Assembly (NCBI RefSeq): GCF_023509035.1
Contig: NZ_CP075583.1
Span: 5,518,001 to 5,582,000 of the forward strand
Direction of reading: 5' to 3'
From: Janthinobacterium lividum
GTDB lineage: Bacteria > Pseudomonadota > Gammaproteobacteria > Burkholderiales > Burkholderiaceae_D
Length of the DNA: 64,000 bases
Part shown: one piece after another, positions 4,382 through 24,144 of the stretch
How the letters are laid out: each line of letters starts with the position of its first letter
How positions within the stretch are numbered: the stretch's first letter is position 1
Made by a program: the position numbers and the translations under genes
The notes under the pieces: model-generated
Told to the model about the DNA's origin: nothing
Database searches by the model: none
The model's input: the letters and a program-made list of their open reading frames with translations, nothing else

Positions 4382-4853
4382 CCTGCGCCAGCACCTGGCC
4401 GCCGCCATCCCCGACCTGCAGCGCGACCCCGACCGCCTGCTGGTCTTCGCCGACGAGGGCAACGTGGTGGCATCGGCCACCGCCTCCCTCTCTTTCGAAT
4501 ACCGCTTCAAGCTCAACCTGATCGTGACCGATTACGCGGGCGACGCTGACGCCATCATGGTGGCCCTGATCGCCTGGCTGAAAGTGCATCAGCTCGACTT
4601 GATGGCCAACGAAGAAACGCGCAAGCACGGCATTGCCTTCGAGGTCGATTTCAACAACCATGAAACGGTCGACATTTCCATCAAGCTGGACCTGACCGAG
4701 CGCGTGGCGGTCAAAACTGGCGAAGCTGGCCGCCTCGACATCAAACATCTGGCCGAAATACAGCACATGCCCGCCTACGCGGACGAGTTCTGGAAGCTGT
4801 ATGACGGCGAGACGCTGCTGGCCGAATGGCGCACGCCCGAGGCCACGGCATGA
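4365..4853 (+). CDS. R: Tail completion protein gpR
   Basis: A 162-residue protein starting MYKPNSLRQHLAAAIPDLQR, similar in size and opening to P2 gpR (155 residues). gpR and gpS are needed to finish the tail and make it competent for joining to heads. Family-like segments include YRFKLNLIVTDYAGDADAIM and HGIAFEVDFNNHETVDISIK. It overlaps the end of Rz by 17 bases, and its stop overlaps the start of S (ATGA), giving tight coupling across the lysis-tail boundary. Confidence 0.87.
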   Translation: MYKPNSLRQHLAAAIPDLQRDPDRLLVFADEGNVVASATASLSFEYRFKLNLIVTDYAGDADAIMVALIAWLKVHQLDLMANEETRKHGIAFEVDFNNHETVDISIKLDLTERVAVKTGEAGRLDIKHLAEIQHMPAYADEFWKLYDGETLLAEWRTPEATA

Positions 4854-5317
4854 GCGAGATCCTGCACGCGCTGGAAGCGTGGGCCGGCGCCCTGCTGGCC
4901 AAGCTGCAGCCGGCCCAGCGCCGTGCCATCAATCACAAGGTGGCCATCGACCTGCGCCGCAGCCAGGCGCAGCGCATCAAGGCGCAGCAGGGGCCGGATG
5001 GCGCGGCGTATCCGGCGCGCAAGAAGCGAAAGGAACTCAAGCAGAAGAAGGGGCGTATCAAACGCCAGAGGGTTTCCATGTTCGCCAAGATTCGCACCGC
5101 AAAATACCTCAAGGTGGATGCCGATCCTGGCCAGTTGACTGTCGGCTTTTTGGATAAGGTGATGCACATCGCACGGGTGCATCATGATGGGCTGGCGGAT
5201 AAGGTCAGCAAGAAAGGGCCCAAATATACCTATCCGGCACGACCGCTATTGGGGATTGGAGAAGCGGATAGAACGTTGATCTGCGAATCGTTGCTGCACC
5301 ACTTTGGAAAATTTTGA
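4850..5317 (+). CDS. S: Tail completion protein gpS (phage virion morphogenesis)
   Basis: A 155-residue protein starting MSEILHALEAWAGALLAKLQ, with the typical conserved block GPDGAAYPARKKRK and a C-terminal motif around HHDGLADKVSKKGP followed by YPARPLLGI. These identify the P2 gpS family, which acts with gpR in tail completion. The ATG overlaps the R stop (ATGA). GC content falls sharply just after this gene, marking the edge of an inserted moron before gene V. Confidence 0.9.
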   Translation: MSEILHALEAWAGALLAKLQPAQRRAINHKVAIDLRRSQAQRIKAQQGPDGAAYPARKKRKELKQKKGRIKRQRVSMFAKIRTAKYLKVDADPGQLTVGFLDKVMHIARVHHDGLADKVSKKGPKYTYPARPLLGIGEADRTLICESLLHHFGKF

Positions 5318-5339
5318 AATAGGTATATTCGAACTTCAC

Positions 5340-5357
5340 ATGACAAGCAGTTGTCAT
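5340..5357. promoter_or_regulatory. Palindrome and weak promoter in front of the cyclase-like moron
   Basis: ATGACAA-GCAG-TTGTCAT is a perfect 7-bp-arm inverted repeat at 5340-5357. Its right arm contains a -35-like TTGTCA (5351-5356), followed after 16 bases by ATAAAT (5373-5378). A repressor bound here would cover the -35 box. No U-run follows, so it is not an obvious terminator of S. Gene 5465-6373 starts about 90 bases downstream. Both the promoter and operator readings are inference. Confidence 0.4.
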
Positions 5358-5464
5358 TTGAGTTAAAGTTTCATAAATTTACGCTACCAAAGGAAAACCG
5401 CCCAGCACTTTATGGTAATGCGTAATATTACAATGCAATTTTTTTCTTTATGACAAGGAATCGA

Positions 5465-9088: not shown

Positions 9089-10719
9089 GCACATACTTTG
9101 CCATCCTGACCGAAGTGGGCGAGGCCAAGCTGGCCAACGCCATCGCCCTGGGCCAAACCCTGAAACTGAAAAGCCTGGCCGTAGGTGACGGCAACGGCAA
9201 TCTGCCCATGCCTGTACGCACGCAAAAGGCGCTGATGCGCGAAGTGCGCCGCGCGGGCCTGAACCAGCTGAGCATCGACCCGGCCAACGCCAGCCAGATC
9301 ATCGTCGAGCAAGTCTTGCCCGAGGACGTGGGCGGCTGGTGGATACGCGAAATCGGTATCTACGACGAGGCCGGCGACCTGTGCGCGGTGGCCAACTGCC
9401 CGCCCAGCTACAAGCCCTTGATGGCCGAGGGCAGCGGGCGCACGCAAGTGGTGCGCATCGTGCTGATCGTCGCCAGCACGGCCGCCATCGAAATGAGAAT
9501 CGACCCGTCCGTCATCCTGGCCACGCGCAAGTATGTCGATGAGCAGGACATCATCGTGCGCGCCTACAACGATGCGCAACTGGCCAAGCACCTGGCCGCC
9601 GCTGACCCGCACCCGCTGCTGGCCAAGGTCGCCTATGTCGATCAGCAGGACACCAGCGCACGCGCCTATGGCGACCAGCAACTGACCAAGCACCAGGCTG
9701 CTGCCGATCCGCACCCGCTGCTGGCGAAGGTCGCCTATGTCGATCAGCAAGACACCAGCGCACGCGCCTATGGCGACCAGCAACTGGCCAAGCACCAGGA
9801 CGCCGCCGATCCGCATCCGCTGCTGGCAAAAGTCGCCTATGTCGATCAGCAAGACACCAGCGCGCGCGCCTACGGCGACCAACAACTGGCCAAGCACCAG
9901 GCCGCCGCCGACCCGCACCCGCTGCTGGCCAAGGTCGCCTATGTCGATCAGCAGGACACCAGCGCGCGCGCCTATGGCGATCAGCAACTGGCGCAGCACC
10001 AGGCTGCTGCCGACCCGCACCCGCTCCTGGCCAAGGTCGCGTATGTCGATCAGCAGGACGCAAGCGCACGCGCTTACAGCGACCAGCAACTGGCCAAGCA
10101 ATTGGGCAACAAATCCCGGACCATCGGCATTCCCGCCAGCACCACGCTCACGCCGGAAAACACTGGCTGCGTGTTCGTGTTCAATGGCAATAATGTGGCG
10201 GCGGTGCTGCCTCTGTCGTCCGCCGTCCCCAGCGGCGCCGAAATCTCGTTCATGTCGTCCAATGCCTCGGGCTGCAGCATTGCGCGCCAGGGCACCGATA
10301 AGCTGGTCAATGGCAATTCCAATTTTCTGACGTCGATGGCACTGGCCGTGGGCGACACGGCGACCTTTGTGTGCTCAAAAAATGAAGGCTGGTACTTGCG
10401 CGACGGCAGCCTGTCGCTGGCCTACTCGGCCCGCTTTGGCGCGGCGCTGGTCACCCAGGGCTACCAGAAGCTGCCCAGCGGCAAGATCGAACAATGGGGG
10501 CAAGTGTTTTCCGATGCCTCGGGCACCGCCGTCGTCGCGTTTCCGATTGCCTTTCCCACAGCGGCGCACTTTGTCGTGCCCTTGGAAATCAATTCAGGTG
10601 CGGGCTATGCCACGGCCATGCAGATCACGCCTGGCAGTTTCCGCATTAATTTTTGGAACGCCGCCGGCGGCCTGGCGCCTGCCGGCGTGCTGGCCAACTG
10701 GTTTGCCTTGGGGAGTTAA
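9085..10719 (+). CDS. H: Tail fibre protein gpH with 34-residue tandem repeats
   Basis: A 544-residue fibre, shorter than P2 gpH (669). The N-terminus (MSTYFAILTEVGEAKLANAI, then VGDGNG and VGGWWIREIGIYDE) is the baseplate-attachment domain of this family. The shaft (residues ~149-340) consists of five full 34-residue repeats plus a partial sixth with core AYVDQQDTSARAYGDQQL. The C-terminal tip (YQKLPSGKIEQWGQVF) resembles gp53-type receptor-binding tips. The tip sets host range, and the tail fibre assembly gene follows after 2 bases. Confidence 0.9.
   Translation: MSTYFAILTEVGEAKLANAIALGQTLKLKSLAVGDGNGNLPMPVRTQKALMREVRRAGLNQLSIDPANASQIIVEQVLPEDVGGWWIREIGIYDEAGDLCAVANCPPSYKPLMAEGSGRTQVVRIVLIVASTAAIEMRIDPSVILATRKYVDEQDIIVRAYNDAQLAKHLAAADPHPLLAKVAYVDQQDTSARAYGDQQLTKHQAAADPHPLLAKVAYVDQQDTSARAYGDQQLAKHQDAADPHPLLAKVAYVDQQDTSARAYGDQQLAKHQAAADPHPLLAKVAYVDQQDTSARAYGDQQLAQHQAAADPHPLLAKVAYVDQQDASARAYSDQQLAKQLGNKSRTIGIPASTTLTPENTGCVFVFNGNNVAAVLPLSSAVPSGAEISFMSSNASGCSIARQGTDKLVNGNSNFLTSMALAVGDTATFVCSKNEGWYLRDGSLSLAYSARFGAALVTQGYQKLPSGKIEQWGQVFSDASGTAVVAFPIAFPTAAHFVVPLEINSGAGYATAMQITPGSFRINFWNAAGGLAPAGVLANWFALGS
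9529..10104 (+). repeat. Five-and-a-half tandem 102-bp repeats coding the fibre shaft
   Basis: Unit boundaries at 9529, 9631, 9733, 9835, 9937 and 10039; the sixth copy breaks off after about 66 bases. Each unit encodes 34 residues with AYVDQQD, ARAYGDQQL and AADPHPLLAKV. The first unit is the most diverged (KYVDEQDIIVRAYNDAQLAK); the inner four are nearly identical at the DNA level. Near-identity suggests recent expansion or ongoing homogenisation. Confidence 0.93.
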
Positions 10720-16356: not shown

Positions 16357-16965
16357 ATGATGATGATTTTAGGCATGTTCGTCTTCAGCCTGCCCACGCT
16401 GGCGTATCACGAGCTGCAGCGACAAACGGAATGGAAGCACGCCAGCACGGCCCGCGTGGGCTTGCGCGACGCGCACCAATACGTGGGGCCCGGCGACGAC
16501 ACCATCACCCTATCGGGCTGGGTGGCACCGGAACTGACCGGCTCCCTGTATTCGCTCGATGCGCTGCGCATGATGGCCGACACCGGTAAATCGTGGATTC
16601 TGATCCAGGGCACGGGCCGCATTCTCGGCTCCTACCGCATTACCAGCATGACGGAAGGCCGCACCATCCTGGACGGCAGCGGTGGCGCGCGCCGCGTCGA
16701 ATTCTCAATTGCGCTCAAGCGCGACGACGACGGCGTGCTGGCCATGGTGGGCCTGGGCGACATCGGCGACCTGAAAAACATGCTCAGCATCGACGGCATG
16801 ACCAGCAGCATTGCCGGCGCGGCCAGGAATGCCGTAGGCAGCGTGGTGGGCAATGTGGTCGGCGGCATCACCTCAAAATACGGCGGCGTGGTCAGCGAGA
16901 TGAAAGACAAGATCGGCAGCAGCATCAGCGGCGCCATCGGCAGCGCGGCGGACAAGTTCAAATGA
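16357..16965 (+). CDS. U: Tail terminator-like protein gpU
   Basis: A 202-residue protein starting MMMILGMFVFSLPTLAYHEL, very close to the start of P2 gpU, followed by YVGPGDDTITLSGWVAPELT, the core family motif. The C-terminal ~50 residues are Gly/Ser/Ala-rich (SIAGAARNAVGSVVGNVVGG) and longer than in P2 (159 residues). gpU is needed for tail completion. The stop overlaps the D start (ATGA). Confidence 0.9.
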   Translation: MMMILGMFVFSLPTLAYHELQRQTEWKHASTARVGLRDAHQYVGPGDDTITLSGWVAPELTGSLYSLDALRMMADTGKSWILIQGTGRILGSYRITSMTEGRTILDGSGGARRVEFSIALKRDDDGVLAMVGLGDIGDLKNMLSIDGMTSSIAGAARNAVGSVVGNVVGGITSKYGGVVSEMKDKIGSSISGAIGSAADKFK

Positions 16966-18233
16966 GCGAGCACATCCCCGCTTTCAAGGTCAGCATCGAG
17001 GACAAGGATTTGACGGCCATCGTGTCGCCGCGGCTGATTAATCTGACCTTGACCCTGTGCCGTGGCGACGAGAGTGACCAGCTCGATATTGCACTGGATG
17101 ACAGCGACGGCAAGCTGGCCCTGCCGCCGCGCGGCGCGCAGATCGCCCTGGCGCTGGGCTGGCAAGCGTCCGGCCTGGTGGACATGGGGAAGTTCACCGT
17201 GGACGAGGTGGAGCACAGCGGCGCGCCCGACACCATCACCCTGCGCGCCAGGTCGGCCAACCTGATCGACACGTTCAAACAGCAGCAGGAGCACAGCTTT
17301 CACAAGACCACCCTGGGTGCCATCATCGAGGCCATCGCCTTTCGCAACGAGCTGGCGTCGGGCGTGTCGGCGCGCCTGCGCGATACCGCCGTCGAGCACG
17401 TCGACCAGACCCACGAAAGCGATGCGTCCTTCCTGCGCCGGCTGGGCAGGAAATACGACGCGGTGGCCACCATCAAGAATGACACTTTGCTCTTCATTCC
17501 CATCAACCAGAGCCGCACCGCCAGCGGCAAGGCGCTGCCCGTCATCCCCATCACGCGCGCCCTGGGCGACGGCCACCGCTACCACAGCGCCGAAAGCGAC
17601 GCCTACACGGGCGTGCGCGCCTTCTGGCATGACGAGCGCTACGCGCGCCGCCGCAGCGTGGTGGCGGGCGTGCCCGGCAATAGCAAGCGCCTGCGCACCA
17701 CCTTCGCCAACGAAACGGACGCGCGCGCGGCGGCCGTGGCCGAATGGCAGCGTATCCTGCGCGGCCTGGCCACCTTTGAAATGAGCCTAGCCCTGGGCAA
17801 CCCGGCCGTGTTCCCGCAATCGCCCGTCACCGTGACAGGATTCAAGCCCGAGATCGACGCGACCGAATGGCTATCGGTCAAGGTCACGCACAGCCTGGGC
17901 GGCTGCGGCTTTACCACGCGGGTGGAATTTGAAACGAAGACGGAAGCGGTCGAGGCAGAACGCGAGGACGAGAAAGACCCGGACGAAGGAATCACGGGCG
18001 TGGTGGCCAAGTGGAAGGACGTGGCGAGGAAAAAGAAACAGACAGGCCAGGAAAGGGCGGGATCAGCGGGTAATCTCAAAACGTTAGAGCACCTCTATAC
18101 GACCAAGCAGAATGCAGAAAGCGCCGTCAAAAAGGCATGGAACCACATTGTGGAAGTACGAGATATCATCCGCGAAAACAGCGAGGAGCCTTGGAAACCT
18201 CCGCAAATAGCAGTCGGCGTAGAAGGAGCATGA
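16962..18233 (+). CDS. D: Late control protein gpD (tail hub)
   Basis: A 423-residue protein. Family motifs include LTLCRGDESDQLDIALDDSD, ADTGKF-like VDMGKFTVDEVEHSGAPDTI, and the C-terminal LSVKVTHSLGGCGFTTRVEF. gpD forms the baseplate hub with V and T, resembling T4 gp27. The final segment (LKTLEHLYTTKQNAESAVKK) is the usual C-terminal tail of long gpD proteins. This is the last structural gene; GC content drops directly afterwards, where the minus-strand array begins. Confidence 0.93.
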   Translation: MSEHIPAFKVSIEDKDLTAIVSPRLINLTLTLCRGDESDQLDIALDDSDGKLALPPRGAQIALALGWQASGLVDMGKFTVDEVEHSGAPDTITLRARSANLIDTFKQQQEHSFHKTTLGAIIEAIAFRNELASGVSARLRDTAVEHVDQTHESDASFLRRLGRKYDAVATIKNDTLLFIPINQSRTASGKALPVIPITRALGDGHRYHSAESDAYTGVRAFWHDERYARRRSVVAGVPGNSKRLRTTFANETDARAAAVAEWQRILRGLATFEMSLALGNPAVFPQSPVTVTGFKPEIDATEWLSVKVTHSLGGCGFTTRVEFETKTEAVEAEREDEKDPDEGITGVVAKWKDVARKKKQTGQERAGSAGNLKTLEHLYTTKQNAESAVKKAWNHIVEVRDIIRENSEEPWKPPQIAVGVEGA

Positions 18234-18244
18234 CCGCGCGCCAA

Positions 18245-18493
18245 TTACATCCGCTCAGCGACTACTTTCATCCATACAGTCCACGATTGATAAATTCCCA
18301 TATGGAAAACTCTTATTTGAACATACCAATCCAAATCTTTACTACTGCAATTAGAGAAGAAATAAAACCAATACAAACCAAAAAAAAACCCAAAAGAATC
18401 CGACAAATATTTCATAACAAAAAAACCCAACACACCCAGAAAAACCCCTAAAAAACCAATCTTATTTCCGCTATTTTTTCTCTCATTCACCAT
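18245..18493 (-). CDS. Possible small membrane protein at the distal end of the array
   Basis: An 82-residue minus-strand frame starting MVNERKNSGNKIGFLGVFLG, with two hydrophobic stretches (GFLGVFLGVLGFFVM and FGFFFGLYWFYFF). AAGGG lies 9 bases before the ATG. The region is AT-rich with long A-runs on the plus strand, so the Phe/Leu content partly reflects base composition. In favour: it has the same strand and spacing as the other array genes, and its stop falls at a second copy of the 'ATTACATCCGCTCAGCG' segment. An opposing plus-strand frame (Lys/Asn/Pro-rich) is less convincing. Unrecognised; may be non-coding. Confidence 0.35.
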   Translation of the reverse strand: MVNERKNSGNKIGFLGVFLGVLGFFVMKYLSDSFGFFFGLYWFYFFSNCSSKDLDWYVQIRVFHMGIYQSWTVWMKVVAERM

Positions 18494-18659
18494 AATGCAG
18501 ACCCTTACGAAAAATACTATCAATTCCTAAAAAATTTTTAACTATTCTACGAATGGAAAGTTCCAGAATGTCGTATTACCGGACCTGACACCGAAGCTGT
18601 TAGTGGGCGCCATTACATCCGCTCAGCGGCTGCTTTCGCCCCATTGCGGACATTGATAC

Positions 18660-19064
18660 TTAAATTTTATGAGTGTTCGAACGGTCGTCCAGTTCATTGT
18701 TCCGTACAACTGGACGAACGAGATAGGCTGTAATGCCGACGGTAAGGCCAGCAGCGATTGCACCTAGCGCTGTGCGAGTCGGCGCATCCAGAAACATTAT
18801 GTAGGGCACACCGCACCCGGCAATACAGGTGGCCAGCAGCAGCAGAGAATCATATTTGCGCAAGAGTATGAGCAATGGCAGGCCCACCAGTGCCAAACCC
18901 GCAAATGACATCGGAACAGCGAGTAGTACGGAAAAAAGAAGTCCGACCCCGACATCAGACGCGATACCTGCATCGGAGCTTCCGATACCTGCCAATGTGA
19001 CTGCTGGGATACTCGACAGCGGCGCCAAAAACAAGGATTTCATAGGGAAGGGTTTGATCTTCAT
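18660..19064 (-). CDS. Putative polytopic membrane protein of unknown function
   Basis: A 134-residue protein starting MKIKPFPMKSLFLAPLSSIP. Four hydrophobic segments can be seen: LFLAPLSSIPAVTLAGI, GVGLLFSVLLAVPMSFAGLALVGL, LLLLATCIAGCGVPYIMFL and ALGAIAAGLTVGITAYLV. A good AGGAAG precedes the ATG by 4 bases. The frame stays open upstream, but those codons belong to the repeat copy at 19084-19125. No family recognised. In an array of small accessory genes, an immunity or membrane-sensor role is possible but unsupported. Confidence 0.6.
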   Translation of the reverse strand: MKIKPFPMKSLFLAPLSSIPAVTLAGIGSSDAGIASDVGVGLLFSVLLAVPMSFAGLALVGLPLLILLRKYDSLLLLATCIAGCGVPYIMFLDAPTRTALGAIAAGLTVGITAYLVRPVVRNNELDDRSNTHKI

Positions 19065-19130
19065 GGGTCTTCCTGTGGTTTTTTGTCTGCTTCTGGCCGG
19101 TTGCCGTCCTTGGCAGGTTTCAGCCAAGAC

Positions 19131-19457
19131 TCAACTACCCGAAGCTCTGATGGCCATAGGCTCCGGCCAGGTTAGTACCGGAGTAAAATCGAACTTCCAA
19201 ACGTCGACTTCGAACGGCAAACCACTTTCGTCGAGGTTCAGAATCGCCGAAACCAAGACGCCGTCAGTATCTTCAAATTCACATGCAGCAATAGTTGCAC
19301 CATATCGCCTGGCATTAGCTTCGGAAGCAAATTTCAAAGACCCCATTCCGCCGTCATCCATCGAACTGACCAACAGCTCAGCTGGATTTTCCAAGCGTCC
19401 TGAAGCGCGAAACAAGAAATCGATAACCGGCAGTTCATGTGGATAAATTAGTCTCAT
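19131..19457 (-). CDS. Small soluble protein resembling the DUF6984 group
   Basis: A 108-residue protein. The middle reads SMDDGGMGSLKFASEANARR, then DTDGVLVSAILNLDESGLPF and VDVWKFDFTPVLTWP. The DGGMGSL, DxDGV and WKxDFxP elements are what I recall of DUF6984, a domain of unknown function common among small accessory and immunity-like genes; this is recall, not a search. Its stop lies 6 bases from a repeat copy, and another copy lies 23 bases upstream of its ATG, so it is a complete gene-plus-repeat unit. Confidence 0.65.
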   Translation of the reverse strand: MRLIYPHELPVIDFLFRASGRLENPAELLVSSMDDGGMGSLKFASEANARRYGATIAACEFEDTDGVLVSAILNLDESGLPFEVDVWKFDFTPVLTWPEPMAIRASGS

Positions 19458-19591
19458 AGCATCACGTAGAAATATTCAGCGGCCGCTCTTGGCCGGATGC
19501 CGTCGTTGGCTGCTTGCGCCCCAAAACGGTCACTCGTGTTTGCCTGGGGCGGCGTCAGTTAGAAGCATGTTTGGCAAGTCGGGGCGATCAT

Positions 19592-20059
19592 CTAATTGAA
19601 CCCTGGACAGGCATGACTGTCCCCTATTCTTTGACTCCGCTTTAACGATTCTTTAGCAATCGCCTCTCGCAGCATACCAAGTTGAGCTCGGAGAAATTGA
19701 TCTATTATGCCTTCCATAGAATCACTTTTTGTAAGGTAAAACAGCGTAGAACTTGACGAAACCAATCGGCAAATCCCTGCGAAACCTAGAGCATCCATCT
19801 CAACAGGGTCGAGATTCAAAGTGATAAGAGTGACAGTTTGCTCCCGAATTGCCTTAAGCACTCTGCGACTTGTATCGATATCCGCGTTGCGAGTTGACTC
19901 GAAATAAAGGTTGATAAGCCCCCCGGTGGTCGCTGCGACTGCCGAGGCGGTTGAAACACTACGAGCTGCTTCTGATCTCTGCTCCAATGCATAGCATGAA
20001 GTGAATCCCACGACCGCGCCCAGTATTGCCGTTGCGACTAGTTTTTTATTCGTAATCAT
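19592..20059 (-). CDS. Membrane-anchored protein of unknown function
   Basis: A 155-residue protein starting MITNKKLVATAILGAVVGFT with one N-terminal hydrophobic segment that is either a signal peptide or an anchor. The Cys at the end (FTSC) does not fit a lipobox well. The remainder is mixed helix (EATRRVLKA-like TSRRVLKAIREQTVTLITLN). The frame continues upstream into the repeat copy at 20098-20148, which I exclude. The ribosome site is weak. No family recognised. Confidence 0.55.
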   Translation of the reverse strand: MITNKKLVATAILGAVVGFTSCYALEQRSEAARSVSTASAVAATTGGLINLYFESTRNADIDTSRRVLKAIREQTVTLITLNLDPVEMDALGFAGICRLVSSSSTLFYLTKSDSMEGIIDQFLRAQLGMLREAIAKESLKRSQRIGDSHACPGFN

Positions 20060-20097
20060 GAGTTTATTAAAATTTCCGAGGGCATACCGTTTGCAAC

Positions 20098-20148
20098 GGC
20101 GGCTTCTGGCTGACGTCCGTCGTTGGCAGGTTCCGCCCCAAAGCGGCC
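20098..20148 (-). repeat. Well-conserved copy of the 51-bp array repeat
   Basis: A full-length copy with both outer arms, GGCGGCTT and AAGCGGCC, and the conserved centre CGTCGTTGGCAGG. It lies 20 bases after the stop of the gene at 20169-20570 and 38 bases before the start of the gene at 19592-20059. Confidence 0.85.
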
Positions 20149-20168
20149 GGTCAGCCACAGGGTCAAAT

Positions 20169-20570
20169 TTACGACAGGTCCACTTCGACTGAGTACTGAT
20201 GGGAGCACGAGGCGCTCAAGAATTCATTCCATGCAACCACCGCTTGACGGAATTCCGTCAAGCTGAAAAGACCATCTGCCGTGGCTTCATCCTCAATTAA
20301 AATGGTAACTTGCGCACCTTGATCGGTAAAATTTACTTCGGTGTCGTTAAGCCCGAATGCCGTTTCTTTCGACTGCCCAGCTTGGACTGCATCCAGCAGT
20401 GCGAGAGCGTTCGCACAATCTTCCGGGGCGTGCATTGTCATGAAAAGAGCCGAGCAGAGATATCGATCATAGCGGTCACCGCCCTCAACAACACAAGTTG
20501 GAAACTGATGCCAGACCTGCCCGATGATGGGGTGCATGCCGCCATCCATACACTTGAATATTAAGATCAT
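20169..20570 (-). CDS. Small acidic soluble protein of unknown function
   Basis: A 133-residue protein starting MILIFKCMDGGMHPIIGQVW. Two later in-frame ATGs (20549, 20537) are alternative starts, none with a clear ribosome site. It is acidic and has no membrane segment (NDTEVNFTDQGAQVTILIED). Size, acidity and isolation between repeats are typical of immunity proteins, but I recognise no family. The repeat at 20652-20702 lies 81 bases upstream. Confidence 0.55.
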   Translation of the reverse strand: MILIFKCMDGGMHPIIGQVWHQFPTCVVEGGDRYDRYLCSALFMTMHAPEDCANALALLDAVQAGQSKETAFGLNDTEVNFTDQGAQVTILIEDEATADGLFSLTEFRQAVVAWNEFLSASCSHQYSVEVDLS

Positions 20571-20742
20571 CTGTTGTACTGAGAATGTTTTTTCGTGACT
20601 TTTTTGATGGGACGTCTACTTTCAGTCGGGAGTTCTTGCCCGCTACCCTGACGGCAGCTTTTGGCCGATTGCCGTCATCGACAGACTCCGTGCTAAAGCA
20701 AACGCTTTGAATGAAAAAGATCAAAACCCACCACTGAGGAAT

Positions 20743-21120
20743 TCAGATGCTTAAATCCAGGCGACTGATTTCGAAATCGACGTGACCGACGCATAATGCA
20801 CCCATGTCGATAAAAAATCCTTGTACCTCGACCAGACCGTCCCCGTGATCGAGTACACGCCCCCGCCCACGATACGCGTAATGACCGGTACGTTCAATCC
20901 ACTCCGTAGACAATGCCTCTTTTTCGCTTTCTGGCCAGTCAGTCAGGTACGTGGCGTGGACATCTGCATCCAGAACCGATAAGCGATTTTCGATAACGTC
21001 GCCTGCTGTTAAGCTGCAAGGATGACAAAACACGACGAGTTCACCTTGCTCGCTGCGCAGAGTAACTGACGCGGCTTCTTCATCTGGCGGATCGACCAAA
21101 ACTACAGTGAGCTTGTCCAT
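20743..21120 (-). CDS. Small acidic soluble protein of unknown function
   Basis: A 125-residue protein starting MDKLTVVLVDPPDEEAASVT. Strongly acidic, predicted mainly beta, with segments GRVLDHGDGLVEVQGFFIDM and GHVDFEISRLDLSI. AAGG lies 11 bases before the ATG. It is flanked by repeat copies at 20652-20702 and 21163-21266. No family recognised; the profile suits an immunity or anti-toxin-like protein, which is only a guess. Confidence 0.6.
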   Translation of the reverse strand: MDKLTVVLVDPPDEEAASVTLRSEQGELVVFCHPCSLTAGDVIENRLSVLDADVHATYLTDWPESEKEALSTEWIERTGHYAYRGRGRVLDHGDGLVEVQGFFIDMGALCVGHVDFEISRLDLSI

Positions 21121-21275
21121 TTTTCAGGTTACCTTGTATATTTTAAGGATGAGATAGAAGGAAGGCCGCTTCTGGCCGAACCCGGCCGCTCGCCTCAGCA
21201 TATCAGATTGCCAAACGGAAAATTCCTTAGGCTCGCTCGATAGGCTGCATCCGCCCCAAAGCAGACGTGATCGCG

Positions 21276-21677
21276 TCACCACCATTTGCCGAACTGGTTG
21301 AGCGCTGAATACAGCGCAAGCATTGACCCGGCATTGATCTTCAGACGAATTGCGATGCAGTCGCCATCTTGTGACTGCCTTTCCGAACGAGGATTGATCG
21401 TTAGATACTCCTGAGATGAATGCCGTTCGAAGTGAAGTACTGGGTACTCGCTCATGTCATTCAGTCCTGCGTCACGGCCGTCACGGAGTTCACTTTCGAA
21501 TTGAATGAGGGCTTCGTACTCAAACCAACGGTGCTCGGCAGTCCAGTTGCAACTCTGGCTTCCACTTGAATACTCAACTTCAAGCCGGACCTGGACGCCA
21601 ATATCTATCGGGTCTACTTCTGCAAACCAAAGCTGGAACTTGAGTGGTCCTTCAGCGAAAGCTACGTCGGCAGCCAT
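21276..21677 (-). CDS. Small soluble protein of unknown function
   Basis: A 133-residue protein starting MAADVAFAEGPLKFQLWFAE, with a good AGGA six bases before the ATG. Beta-rich and acidic (VRLEVEYSSGSQSCNWTAEH), ending LYSALNQFGKWW. Flanked by repeat copies at 21163-21266 and 21720-21770. The general pattern recalls WapI-type and similar immunity proteins, but I cannot assign it. Confidence 0.62.
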   Translation of the reverse strand: MAADVAFAEGPLKFQLWFAEVDPIDIGVQVRLEVEYSSGSQSCNWTAEHRWFEYEALIQFESELRDGRDAGLNDMSEYPVLHFERHSSQEYLTINPRSERQSQDGDCIAIRLKINAGSMLALYSALNQFGKWW

Positions 21678-21719
21678 CTGAATCCTTTCTTGGGTGTGCT
21701 AATCTCGGGCTATCGCAGT

Positions 21720-21770
21720 GGCCGCCTCTGGCCGGTTGCCGTCGTTGGCAGGTTACGCCCCATAGCGGAC
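21720..21770 (-). repeat. Well-conserved copy of the 51-bp array repeat
   Basis: A full-length copy, exactly 51 bp, between the stop of the gene at 21775 and the start of the gene at 21677. The copies at 22123-22173 and 19481-19531 have the same length. Confidence 0.85.
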
Positions 21771-21774
21771 AGCC

Positions 21775-22074
21775 CTAATTCGTGTCAAACGCCAACTCTT
21801 CGAAGTCTTGGAGTAAATGTGCACCGCAAATAGCTTCACCACTCTGATAGGCCTTGAGAGAATCATCCAATATTCGCTGTAGCGCTTGCATCTTTTCTGC
21901 TGCGACAGTCCCAACCAAATATTTCAAGCCTTGATGCAGCTCTTCGAATGCAGTTGCCAAGTTCATTTGTTCTTCTGGGTGTAGAAAATCAAATTCGCGA
22001 AATTTATTCGGTGCGCTAACTATTACAACAGATAGAAAATTTAAATAGTCCTGGGAGTTATTTATTCGTTTCAT
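21775..22074 (-). CDS. Small helical protein of unknown function
   Basis: A 99-residue protein starting MKRINNSQDYLNFLSVVIVS. Mostly helical: HPEEQMNLATAFEELHQGLK and EKMQALQRILDDSLKAYQSG. The open frame extends upstream through the repeat copy at 22123-22173, which I exclude because the same residues appear upstream of other array genes. The ribosome site is weak. The stop is 4 bases from the next repeat copy. No family recognised. Confidence 0.55.
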   Translation of the reverse strand: MKRINNSQDYLNFLSVVIVSAPNKFREFDFLHPEEQMNLATAFEELHQGLKYLVGTVAAEKMQALQRILDDSLKAYQSGEAICGAHLLQDFEELAFDTN

Positions 22075-22181
22075 TTTTTTGTTCGTATAGTTGTACCAAG
22101 TAAGACGTGTCCAGCGTCCAGAGGCTGCTTCTGGCCGGTTGCCGTCATTGGCAGGTTCCGCCCCATTGCGGACGTTGGCCA

Positions 22182-22640
22182 CTATTGAGGATCATCGTGT
22201 ATATGCCACGATTTAGCCTGAGATACATAGGTTAGAAACGGGTTTTGCTCGCAATTTTCAGGGGTGATGTCCGCAGGAAGTTCTAGAGTCTCAGCCAGGT
22301 TTTCGACGAATGACAGGACTTGCTCATGCTGCAAGAGTCCAGTAACTTCCTTCGGTGAGATATCGAGTTCTAACTGCTCGGGGATGAAGAAATGACAGCA
22401 GATTACAACCGGGCCATCCAACAGAATCGACAACAAATGCGAACCTTCACGATTCGCCAGAACGCTGCGCGATCCCGGAAATGGCAGCGCAGCCCCAGCA
22501 AAGCTGTACGTGCATTCGTATTGGTTGAGCAGTCGGTCGAAGCGATCCCAGTGGATAGCTTCAGTATTCCGCACGTAGACGTCTCGAAGCGATCCATCTC
22601 GTTGCCATAGTCCTGCTATATCGTTGAAGTTCGGTCTCAT
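22182..22640 (-). CDS. Soluble protein of unknown function
   Basis: A 152-residue protein starting MRPNFNDIAGLWQRDGSLRD. The N-terminal half (GLWQRDGSLRDVYVRNTEAI) looks like a small beta domain, and the middle carries LLSILLDGPVVICCHFFIPE. I think similar proteins occur among unassigned immunity-like genes but cannot name the family. This is the one array gene not preceded by a repeat copy: the next gene ends 8 bases upstream, so the two probably form one unit. Confidence 0.6.
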   Translation of the reverse strand: MRPNFNDIAGLWQRDGSLRDVYVRNTEAIHWDRFDRLLNQYECTYSFAGAALPFPGSRSVLANREGSHLLSILLDGPVVICCHFFIPEQLELDISPKEVTGLLQHEQVLSFVENLAETLELPADITPENCEQNPFLTYVSQAKSWHIHDDPQ

Positions 22641-22648
22641 GCTGGCCG

Positions 22649-22954
22649 CTAGCTGTCGAGTTGGTCCAAAAATTCAATACCACCTAAACGGTAGCCTTTT
22701 AGGATATCGAGGACTACTGTTCCGAATATCTCATGCTCAATCAAAATATTACTCTCGAATTGCCACAAAGAGCCTTGCTCGTTCGGTCTCGCGCGAGAGA
22801 CATAGCGCACATAAGCCGTACTTTCCCATTGTCCATCGCTACAGTTCTCCAGCGCGGCAGGCAGCCACTCGAACTCAGCGGCTTGCATTTTCACTGCGTC
22901 GTTCAACATCCGGGGATGAAAGCCAATAATGCGGCCAACCCTAATTTTACTCAT
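22649..22954 (-). CDS. Small protein of unknown function
   Basis: A 101-residue protein starting MSKIRVGRIIGFHPRMLNDA. Acidic, with EFEWLPAALENCSDGQWEST and a C-terminal VVLDILKGYRLGGIEFLDQL. A GGA-containing ribosome site precedes the ATG. The frame stays open upstream through the repeat copy at 22981-23038. No family recognised. Confidence 0.58.
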   Translation of the reverse strand: MSKIRVGRIIGFHPRMLNDAVKMQAAEFEWLPAALENCSDGQWESTAYVRYVSRARPNEQGSLWQFESNILIEHEIFGTVVLDILKGYRLGGIEFLDQLDS

Positions 22955-23064
22955 GCAATATTCCAGATTGATGTTCAAGCGTCGGCTCCTGGCCGGTTGC
23001 CGACGTTCATGCGCGGCAGCTTCCGCCCCGAAGCAGACGGTGGTCCACATGCATCGATTGAATT

Positions 23065-23517
23065 TCACCTTGAAATACCCAACCAGATTGGGATCATTGC
23101 AGCGTCATGGCCAGTGAGTCCGCTGACCCCATCGACAAGATACAAATTTGGACAGGTTGAATCGAAATATTCTTCTATGTCGTCCAAAATTATGTAAGGT
23201 TCGTCGGTAACTTCGTTCTCAACCAACCACGACTCAATCTCTTGTTGACGGATACCGGGTACATAGTCAGTCGTACTTTCCATGATTGGAGTAACGCCTA
23301 TGAAACGATTAGAGAAGTGCTCACCTCCATGACCTTTCAATAGTTCCACCAATTGTGCCAAAGAAAATTGCTCACGCCAGGTTGATGTGATGACTACAGA
23401 AATCTCAGGAATTTTTTCCAAGATTGTCCATAGTGATGGAGTCGCTGAAAAATGACTGCTGGTCGACGTCATCGGAAATGGATGGAGTACACCATCAAAG
23501 TCTAAGAAAAGTATCAT
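23065..23517 (-). CDS. HAD-superfamily protein (HAD_SAK-like)
   Basis: A 150-residue protein starting MILFLDFDGVLHPFPMTSTS. The DxDG nucleophile motif (D7, D9) is followed by ISVVITSTWRE (HAD motif II) and by IILDDIEEYF, the acidic metal-binding motif III. The LDFDGVLHP / TSTWR / LDD combination is typical of small HAD domains grouped with the Swiss Army Knife RNA-repair set. It is probably a phosphatase or phosphotransferase, substrate unknown. It is the array gene nearest the repressor on the same strand, and a half repeat lies 29 bases upstream. Confidence 0.7.
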   Translation of the reverse strand: MILFLDFDGVLHPFPMTSTSSHFSATPSLWTILEKIPEISVVITSTWREQFSLAQLVELLKGHGGEHFSNRFIGVTPIMESTTDYVPGIRQQEIESWLVENEVTDEPYIILDDIEEYFDSTCPNLYLVDGVSGLTGHDAAMIPIWLGISR

Positions 23518-23685
23518 TCTGTGGTCACTAAGTTGAAAGGCAGACTGTCTGCTCTTGGCCGAATCCAGCCGAAGTTGCTCAGACGTTGACTTTACGACAC
23601 CTTCACGCATCAGATCGGTATGCGTAGTATGCAGACAAAACAAGCAGCAATTACAATAAGCATAAGAAGGTGAATCAGTTGCAGA

Positions 23686-24129
23686 CTATTTTTCCTTTTT
23701 TCGTCCGCTACCGGCCACATTAAAAGTCTGCGGCCCAATGATATTCCCCACGAAATTTTGCCCAATCTTGCCGTGGGTTTCAACGTGCGGAGTATTTCCT
23801 GCGGAAGATGTTGGGGGCGTTGGCATGCGCATGCCGCCAATCATTCCAAGAACACCAGCTCGTCCACGTGCATCTAGGTTCCGGAAACCAGAAACTAACT
23901 CGCTTTCATCTGCACTAAGTACAGCAGCTAAAACGCTGCCTGTCATCACATACCAAACGTCTACGCCAATTTCTAACAGCGCGCAGAGGTAGACAGCATC
24001 GGGAGAGCGCTCATCTTTTTCATACGAAATTTGAGCGCGTTTTTTGACCCCGCCGACCGCTGCGAAGTCATCTTGATTCATGCCCAAACGTTGACGCTCT
24101 TGCTTTAATCTTTCACCAAACATGCTCAT
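23686..24129 (-). CDS. Phage repressor, Xre/HTH type
   Basis: A 147-residue protein. The N-terminal HTH reads MFGERLKQERQRLGMNQDDF then VKKRAQISYEKDERSPDAVY, a Cro/CI-type fold. The C-terminal half (NTPHVETHGKIGQNFVGNII) lacks the Ser/Lys dyad of self-cleaving repressors, so it is probably a P2 C-like, non-SOS-cleaved repressor. GTG 24135, ATG 24129 and ATG 24123 are alternative starts. It diverges from the early genes across a 79-bp interval with an operator-like palindrome. The whole array lies downstream on the same strand and could be co-expressed in the lysogen. Confidence 0.82.
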   Translation of the reverse strand: MSMFGERLKQERQRLGMNQDDFAAVGGVKKRAQISYEKDERSPDAVYLCALLEIGVDVWYVMTGSVLAAVLSADESELVSGFRNLDARGRAGVLGMIGGMRMPTPPTSSAGNTPHVETHGKIGQNFVGNIIGPQTFNVAGSGRKKEK

Positions 24130-24144
24130 ACTCACATCTTTTTC

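Follow-up and report, generated by a model that had tools for sequence, protein, structure and literature searches.

A small-gene array in a Janthinobacterium lividum prophage as a probable instance of a gene-cassette system bounded by inverted repeat arms

The window analysed here is a stretch of 64,000 nucleotides (C1:5518001-5582000) from the 6.26-Mb single-contig genome of a Janthinobacterium lividum strain, in which a P2-like Janthinobacterium prophage, recognised by Pfam and PHROG matches in the surroundings, carries an array of small genes spaced by copies of a repeat. Translation of the open reading frames (ORFs) places ten of them, 99–155 aa long and all co-oriented on the minus strand, at 18660-23517, and we confirm the repeat-spaced array of minus-strand small genes that a first-pass annotation of this DNA had proposed, with eight full or nearly full repeat copies and two half copies. 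The array probably belongs to a type of cassette system that many Janthinobacterium genomes carry, with a related form in other genera of the family (Oxalobacteraceae in the NCBI placement of the genus), and that depends on a putative trans-acting recombinase working at two short repeat arms. Comparisons between genomes show that the unit that moves is usually an R-arm, a short leader, one gene and an L-arm, resolved to about 15 bp of each arm, and that such units are stacked head to tail in one direction, with spacers of a few lengths between them and fixed boundaries around them. The mobility of the cassettes is well supported by these alignments, and the modular-cassette reading of the array is strongly supported; for the movement itself we infer a putative enzyme that acts in trans on the arms.

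Repeat arms and array boundaries

All of the genes had been described as separated by one 51-bp repeat with ends that can pair. The repeat is real but composite; an L-arm (GTCCGCTTTGGGGC) lies 3' of one gene, usually shortly past the stop codon, and an R-arm (CGGCCAGAAGCGGAC) lies 5' of the next, usually ∼20–60 nt ahead of the start codon, with a spacer between them that was scored in the window array as 22, 29 or 74 nt. There is no repeat between genes 8 and 9 (22182-22640 and 22649-22954), so these form two genes in one unit. Searches with profiles of the repeat (nhmmer) return eight full or nearly full minus-strand copies within 19084-23040, with E-values of 7e-28 for the long copy at 21160-21268, a variant of ∼107 bp whose arms are the same, and of 1e-9 to 1.8e-17 for the other seven. 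Weak half copies lie at the two array ends (18628-18654, E 0.012, and 23543-23571, E 0.072). Over 63 stretches the arm spacings are quantised into few length classes: the spacing is exactly 22 nt in 72 of 116 matrix-scored pairs, 72–74 nt in 12 and 29 nt in four, by a scoring with a low threshold that admits chance pairs. The long class has a conserved middle of its own and recurs in other genomes. Intervals of 150–2000 bp between repeats, 135 of them in 43 stretches, have a median interior of 501 bp and a median ORF of 136 aa, and the longest ORF runs in the sense orientation of the repeat in 128 and in the opposite one in seven.

The proposed pairing of the repeat ends stands at the level of the consensus, where the arms are complementary and slid controls pair far less, but within single copies the arms do not covary beyond shuffles (72.1% paired versus 71.6%). 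A second within-site test gave 5.98 of 9 versus 5.83 shuffled, a value reached by 141 of 2000 shuffles. The missing covariation fits two binding sites of one putative protein better than a co-evolving folded hairpin, and a conserved hairpin would also agree with it. A structured RNA was rejected on this ground and because neither the window array nor a plasmid array has an Rfam match.

The array ends are set by sister prophages at window positions 23561 and 18270, close to the limits of 18245 and 23570 that had been given before. The core pattern occurs in six stretches on five contigs of IMG/VR, and three of these (L173, L175 and L176, the first and last from one genome, judged by names) are of the window's prophage type, with flanks that are ∼82–94% identical. 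Between the flanks lie 4892 bp in L173, 2046 bp in L175 (its left end being the point where its flank match stops) and 3810 bp in L176, versus 5292 bp in the window. All three have the right array boundary of the window and two also the left, with different cassettes in between; among the matches listed, at most six each, they match the window array in the repeats only. On the left, the junction at which ...GGCTGGATT is followed by CG is common to the window, L173 and L176, and not to L175, and the flank/R-arm junction reads ...CAACTTCGGCTGGATT and then CGGCCA in the window and L176, and CGTCCA in L173. On the right, all three sister flank matches end at window position 18269; the flank starts with GAAAGNAGNCGCTGA in the window, L175 and L176 and is altered in L173, and the arm preceding it is degenerate in the window and L175. 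A further prophage, in genome G038, has the same left flank and no R-arm.

Fixed boundaries are also seen on the chromosome. At an esterase locus represented by 24 stretches, one of them only 1261 bp long, at least half a repeat is present in 15, some of these being weak, and none in nine; the last L-arm of several arrays falls at one place, ahead of a conserved right flank. As we read the clusters of flanking genes, at least four hotspots recur and between them account for several of the fetched arrays. The fixed right flank after the last L-arm at the esterase locus (L087-L106) holds a sequence like the 22-nt spacer, AACTGCCAACGACAGCAAGAAC, which is possibly an anchor site.

Could the arms simply be expression signals, a promoter or operator before the gene and a hairpin after it, kept as a portable unit that moves illegitimately? 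The position of the arms beside start and stop codons would suit such a role, as would a conserved block containing TATGCT in the long spacers. The window array has no excess of either signal, however, with seven sigma-70-like matches versus 6.1 expected and five terminator-like ones versus 5.6; the repeats lie at very different distances from the start codon, and the same boundaries with different contents in sister prophages are left unexplained. We regard this explanation as very improbable.

Two other features of the spacers were seen. The long spacers, including that at window 21160-21268, and a 67-bp R-to-R module have in common a conserved block ending in TATGCT, which looks promoter-like and has no sigma-70 match in the window. 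A 385-bp non-coding element with 74–82% identity occupies spacer positions in many arrays (L177:8355-8740, 4691-5060, 5062-5432 and 9793-10181; also L021, L178, L072, L050, L055, L051 and L048). It has no Rfam match and no conserved open frame, and both-sided changes occur in only 3 of its 73 predicted pairs.

Exchange of single cassettes between genomes

In a comparison with 40 genomes of the genus, its own included, the window array has matches in 33 at E≤0.001, and outside its own genome the long ones are single cassettes (genes 1, 2, 5, 6, 8 and 9, at 82–98.5%). A set of 40 homologous cassette pairs was assembled at ≥85% identity, each from different genomes (62 units in 27 clusters). The scored upstream neighbour is common to both members in none of these pairs, and the same is true of the scored downstream neighbour, with array ends and unclustered neighbours counted as not shared. 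The pairs were then read singly with 400 bp of context, and 33 of the 40 align arm to arm. Among these 33, the match has its upstream start within or at the R-arm in 17 pairs, inside the spacer in 13 and further out than the spacer in three; for the 15 pairs with both L-arms it ends downstream at or in the L-arm in seven, in the spacer in eight and further on in none. Measured in 5-base blocks, identity just before the R-arm is 50.5% (random pairs, 45.2%) and just past it 84.5% (36.1%), while just before the L-arm it is 96.0% (34.5%) and just after it 60.0% (55.9%). Random pairs resemble each other just as closely within the arms (outer blocks, 94.6% and 95.4%), and the exchange edge is therefore resolved to the arm only. 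In 12 of the 15 pairs the two members have different spacer classes after the L-arm, one side being unclassified in six of these. On J. lividum EIF2 plasmid p356839 a two-gene block is present twice, with 96.8% identity; its 3' end lies at most 4 bp from the L-arm, and one copy is followed by a compact hairpin and the other by a 22-nt spacer.

These results bear out the earlier suggestion of a cassette-like array with modular exchange, in that match edges fall at repeats and sister prophages carry other cassettes. Recombination at the repeats is likewise supported, at or within the arms, with the qualification that a cassette is often not accompanied by its spacer. Repeat copies are present in 31 of the 40 genus genomes, own included (62-position model), often in arrays and also on plasmids and in other prophages; gene content between copies varies among relatives, gene order is not kept, and the copies are clustered with co-oriented genes rather than spread evenly.

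The main rival explanation needs no dedicated enzyme: homologous recombination of the usual RecA-dependent kind, either between prophages or following natural transformation, with the intergenic repeats serving as its patches of homology. The 22-nt spacer and the arms are well conserved, and crossovers inside them would mimic arm edges; match edges do fall in the spacer in 13 of 40 pairs upstream and in 8 of 15 downstream, the downstream spacer class is equal in three of the 15, and no recombinase was found in scans of cassettes, flanks and Y1 loci. We nevertheless consider this route unlikely. Where the downstream spacer classes differ, as in the 12 pairs above, the DNA shared at the 3' junction is often little beyond the 14-bp arm, and the repeat copies differ from each other at many positions. 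Long recombination tracts, moreover, should often bring neighbours along, and no scored neighbour is common in any of the 40 pairs.

If cassettes are instead moved by a dedicated enzyme, a site-specific recombinase or transposase encoded elsewhere would recognise the inverted arms, excise or copy one cassette, and insert it where an arm meets a spacer, in an array or at an anchor site on a phage or chromosome. Prophages, plasmids and hotspots would serve as vehicles and landing sites, and the arrays would be exchangeable stores of accessory genes, including bacterial immunity proteins and acetyltransferases. A broader form of this proposal is one for which we find the case evenly balanced: a gene-cassette capture unrelated to integrons, present in several genera of the family and carried by prophages and plasmids, in which the putative enzyme would recognise the inverted arm pair or the R-arm alone and conserved non-coding spacer modules would be separate parts of the machinery.

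A number of observations weigh against movement of arm-bounded cassettes by such an enzyme. Arm-to-arm alignment fails in seven of the 40 pairs, some cassette matches break inside genes, and three pair matches run upstream past the spacer, one of them by at least 400 bp, the whole context. The duplication on p356839 comprises two genes plus part of the upstream spacer, with its upstream edge inside a long spacer. The match of gene 8 in genome G013 stops 4 bp before the start codon, where there is no arm, and relatives of gene 5 in G033 and G008 (74–76%) have no repeat in the stretch fetched. Near-identical cassettes can have differing L-arm letters (c63 versus c70 and c129), the two arms of a given cassette, R and L, show no covariation (6.0 of 9; shuffled, 6.03), and breakpoints can be placed no more finely than the arms. 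No target-site duplication was evident at the junctions read, albeit without a systematic search, and a prophage site cleanly lacking an array was not seen. A recombinase gene was not seen in or beside the arrays, among ten flank proteins and the cassette families listed, and R-arm arrays in genus g356 have no recognisable L-arm.

The putative enzyme and known systems

No tyrosine recombinase was found in the ten flank proteins, in the 25 of 63 cassette families listed or in the table for other genera (16 of 16), a scan that took in some, not all, of the flank genes. Among the matches listed, the flank and cassette scans gave IS-type transposase domains only. A conserved neighbouring recombinase was rejected as a candidate in that ten representatives of recurrent flank clusters belong to other families (LysR, MFS, MCP, DUF4153, this one weak, glyoxalase, nitronate monooxygenase and an IS30-type transposase, with three having no family). 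Nor was linkage to a Y1 (RAYT) transposase seen in 30 PF01797 loci fetched, none of which has an arm at up to two mismatches; this set does not include the commonest type of ∼242 aa, listed for most genomes. Since no gene for the mover was found in these scans, we infer an enzyme acting in trans on the arms.

Integrons are the textbook bacterial route for collecting single genes as cassettes, and the integron attC site, with its core-box consensus RYYYAAC/GTTRRRY, travels along with its cassette. The arrays described here resemble those of integrons in their compact, mostly single-gene and co-oriented units (128 of 135 intervals, with at least one window unit having two genes), in their imperfect palindromic sites, in combinations that vary by genome and in an overlap of cargo (acetyltransferases). 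They differ in that the spacer is often not common to copies of one cassette and arrays occur at several sites per genome. Nor was an integron integrase found, as the first-pass annotation had noted for the window; the integron integrase model TIGR02249 finds nothing above its cut-off in the 40 genus genomes, whereas 71 of 185 genomes sampled from the class give a match above it in an identical search. The attC core pair is absent from all 62 sites, in a search that had no positive control and that also gave none in 2000 random 82-mers. On integrase (0/40) and attC core (0/62) an integron was rejected. A degenerate integron, a drifted attC cluster that lacks its integrase and is mobilised by an integron integrase from elsewhere, would agree with the co-oriented one-gene units and, to judge from excerpts of the source, with imperfect palindromic sites of comparable size and an integron-like cargo of GNAT and APH proteins (PMC7370490). 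The same integrase and attC results speak against it, as does the spacer that often differs between copies of a cassette, and we think it most improbable.

In miniature inverted-repeat transposable element (MITE)-like or mobile insertion cassettes, passenger genes lie between inverted repeats and are moved in trans. Here too a gene lies between short inverted ends, with R-arm and L-arm inverted by consensus, and comes without a transposase. The present arrays are set apart from such passengers by units that are stacked head to tail, all oriented the same way, with few spacer lengths, and by the lack of an evident target duplication and of a related autonomous element, neither of which was searched for systematically.

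Recombinase-associated acquired interbacterial defence (rAID) arrays of Bacteroidales are, in the parts of the source available, recognised by a predicted tyrosine recombinase gene accompanying the array, and their genes are put at <41% GC (PMC12247911). According to the same parts, they are like the present arrays in having co-oriented short genes, conserved intergenic motifs, some immunity proteins and a GC content below that of the host (PMC12247911). The present arrays differ from that partial description in that no tyrosine recombinase was seen among the proteins scanned, GC is 0.498, the named cargo is broader and the host is of another phylum. In Vibrio cholerae, orphan immunity-gene arrays of the type VI secretion system (T6SS) lie downstream of T6SS clusters (PMC5361080, in part). 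These share with the present arrays the rows of immunity genes, as far as that part describes them; here the genes carried are of mixed kinds, and an effector gene was not noticed, in the absence of a systematic search for one. In its workings the Janthinobacterium system resembles integrons and the rAID arrays of Bacteroidales, yet it fails tested defining features of both. If it is truly a second route that dispenses with the integron integrase, gene-by-gene exchange would be commoner than integron searches show, and it would be explained how small unrelated genes accumulate in rows within prophages and at chromosomal hotspots. The arms would then be a defined DNA target in the hunt for a new recombinase, and the system would offer a testable model for the origin of orphan immunity-gene collections.

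Range, setting and cargo

With stricter filters, the 62-position model found only the window's own genome among 300 genomes of the order, where no other member of the genus is among the matches listed. The exact core pattern, searched over a collection of 84,980 species, occurs in 12 stretches, all 12 in Janthinobacterium records, and the only two matching plasmid records are both of J. lividum. A phage sequence collection gave no match to the repeat consensus, and in the published literature the repeat was not found described among the matches listed, judged by titles and the opening lines of abstracts. The R-arm has a broader range than the full repeat, and further genera of the family show an excess of it as well. 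Its pattern CGGCCARNAGCGGNC has 147 matches versus 18 for the reversed control in 13 genomes of the genus, 146 versus 29 in 12 genomes of genus g3 and 122 versus 35 in 11 genomes of g356 (hand sums), whereas other genera, such as g342, g341 and g327, show little or no excess. Three g356 genomes have arrays of small, mostly co-oriented genes with R-arms in between. The compact hairpin CCGCTTTCGGCCARAAGCGGNC, at up to two mismatches, occurs in 72 of 398 genomes of the phylum, with ∼20 for the reversed control (hand count).

A long small-gene array with R-arms between its genes was also seen in genome G846, of another genus of the family (L192 and L202). Pfam searches of 36 proteins from this array and its sister loci gave APH, GNAT, NUDIX, UDG and Mrr domains.

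The window array lies in the prophage with tail sheath, tape measure, gpU and gpD genes on one side and a repressor-like HTH gene and replication gene A on the other. Its GC content is 0.498, versus 0.615–0.637 for the flanks. The parts of the array are listed in Table 1.

Table 1. Parts of the window array and its immediate flanks, with window positions.
Feature	Position	Strand	Basis
HTH repressor-like gene, array flank	23686..24135	-	PF01381, phage transcription-regulation PHROGs
R-arm of first cassette, left array boundary	23547..23561	-	CGGCCAAGAGCAGAC
Cassette gene 10, HAD_SAK_2 protein, 150 aa	23065..23517	-	Pfam PF18143, E 2.5e-22
Site: L-arm, 29-nt spacer, R-arm	22977..23040	-	nhmmer and arm scoring
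Cassette gene 9, 101 aa	22649..22954	-	ORF; DNA 22761-22995 vs G012 87%
Cassette gene 8, 152 aa, family unassigned	22182..22640	-	vs G013 88.7% over 22159-22644
Site near consensus: L-arm, 22-nt spacer, R-arm	22119..22176	-	nhmmer 1.8e-17
Cassette gene 7, 99 aa, no Pfam match	21775..22074	-	ORF, Pfam scan
Site: L-arm, 22-nt spacer, R-arm	21716..21772	-	nhmmer
Cassette gene 6, 133 aa	21276..21677	-	DNA 21247-21738 vs G025 94.7%, G014 93%, G032 91%
Long-class site: L-arm, 74-nt spacer, R-arm	21160..21268	-	profile A2, E 7e-28
Cassette gene 5, 125 aa, no Pfam match	20743..21120	-	DNA 20658-21161 vs G014 91.7%; G005 82%
Site, degenerate L-arm	20650..20705	-	nhmmer
Cassette gene 4, 133 aa, no Pfam above cut-off	20169..20570	-	ORF, Pfam scan
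Site: L-arm, 22-nt spacer, R-arm	20094..20152	-	nhmmer
Cassette gene 3, 155 aa, no Pfam above cut-off	19592..20059	-	ORF, Pfam scan
Site: L-arm, 22-nt spacer, R-arm	19476..19534	-	nhmmer
Cassette gene 2, DUF6984, 108 aa	19131..19457	-	PF22480 E 2.3e-26; DNA 19085-19495 vs G007 98.5%
Site, degenerate L-arm	19084..19130	-	nhmmer
Cassette gene 1, 134 aa, no Pfam match	18660..19064	-	18636-19114 vs G019, 18628-19106 vs G005, both 97.3%
L-arm of last well-formed cassette	18638..18651	-	GTCCGCAATGGGGC
Last unit, AT-rich (GC 0.345), ends at prophage flank	18270..18611	-	flank homology and GC
P2-like tail protein gpD, array flank	16593..18233	+	Pfam PF05954, phrog_52

The named cargo is mixed, comprising acetyltransferases, immunity proteins and unassigned proteins. 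The 127 proteins from cassette intervals match 63 Pfam families, none with more than four members among the 25 families listed; these include GNAT acetyltransferases (four), the T6SS immunity protein Tdi1 (three), ankyrin (two), the lysozyme inhibitor LprI (two) and several DUFs, and NCBIfam adds IS30 transposases in two intervals. That the arrays could hold immunity or defence genes, as had been suggested, is partly supported, by the three Tdi1 proteins among the 127 and by some plasmid products, but is not established for the cargo as a class. The plasmid array L177 includes products annotated as Tdi1 and CDI immunity, plasmid arrays also have SMI1/KNR4, and L007 has one SUKH-3 protein. PADLOC found five families in the 127 proteins, each in at most two members, which is too sparse for defence island as a general label, and this label was rejected.

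Within the window only genes 2 and 10 have a family above cut-off, and no immunity-family match was found among the window genes. Gene 8 has 106 homologous proteins, its own included, with Massilia and Pseudomonas syringae named among them, and is present in 7 of 245 genomes of the family, own included, from four genera; cassette genes are thus patchily spread over genera. Gene 6 has 34 homologous proteins. AlphaFold2 (AF2) models of gene 8 (pLDDT 95) and gene 6 (pLDDT 70) gave no PDB match at E≤0.001. In genome G012 an APH(3')-I aminoglycoside phosphotransferase gene forms a single cassette between R-arm and L-arm (L056:6878-7690).

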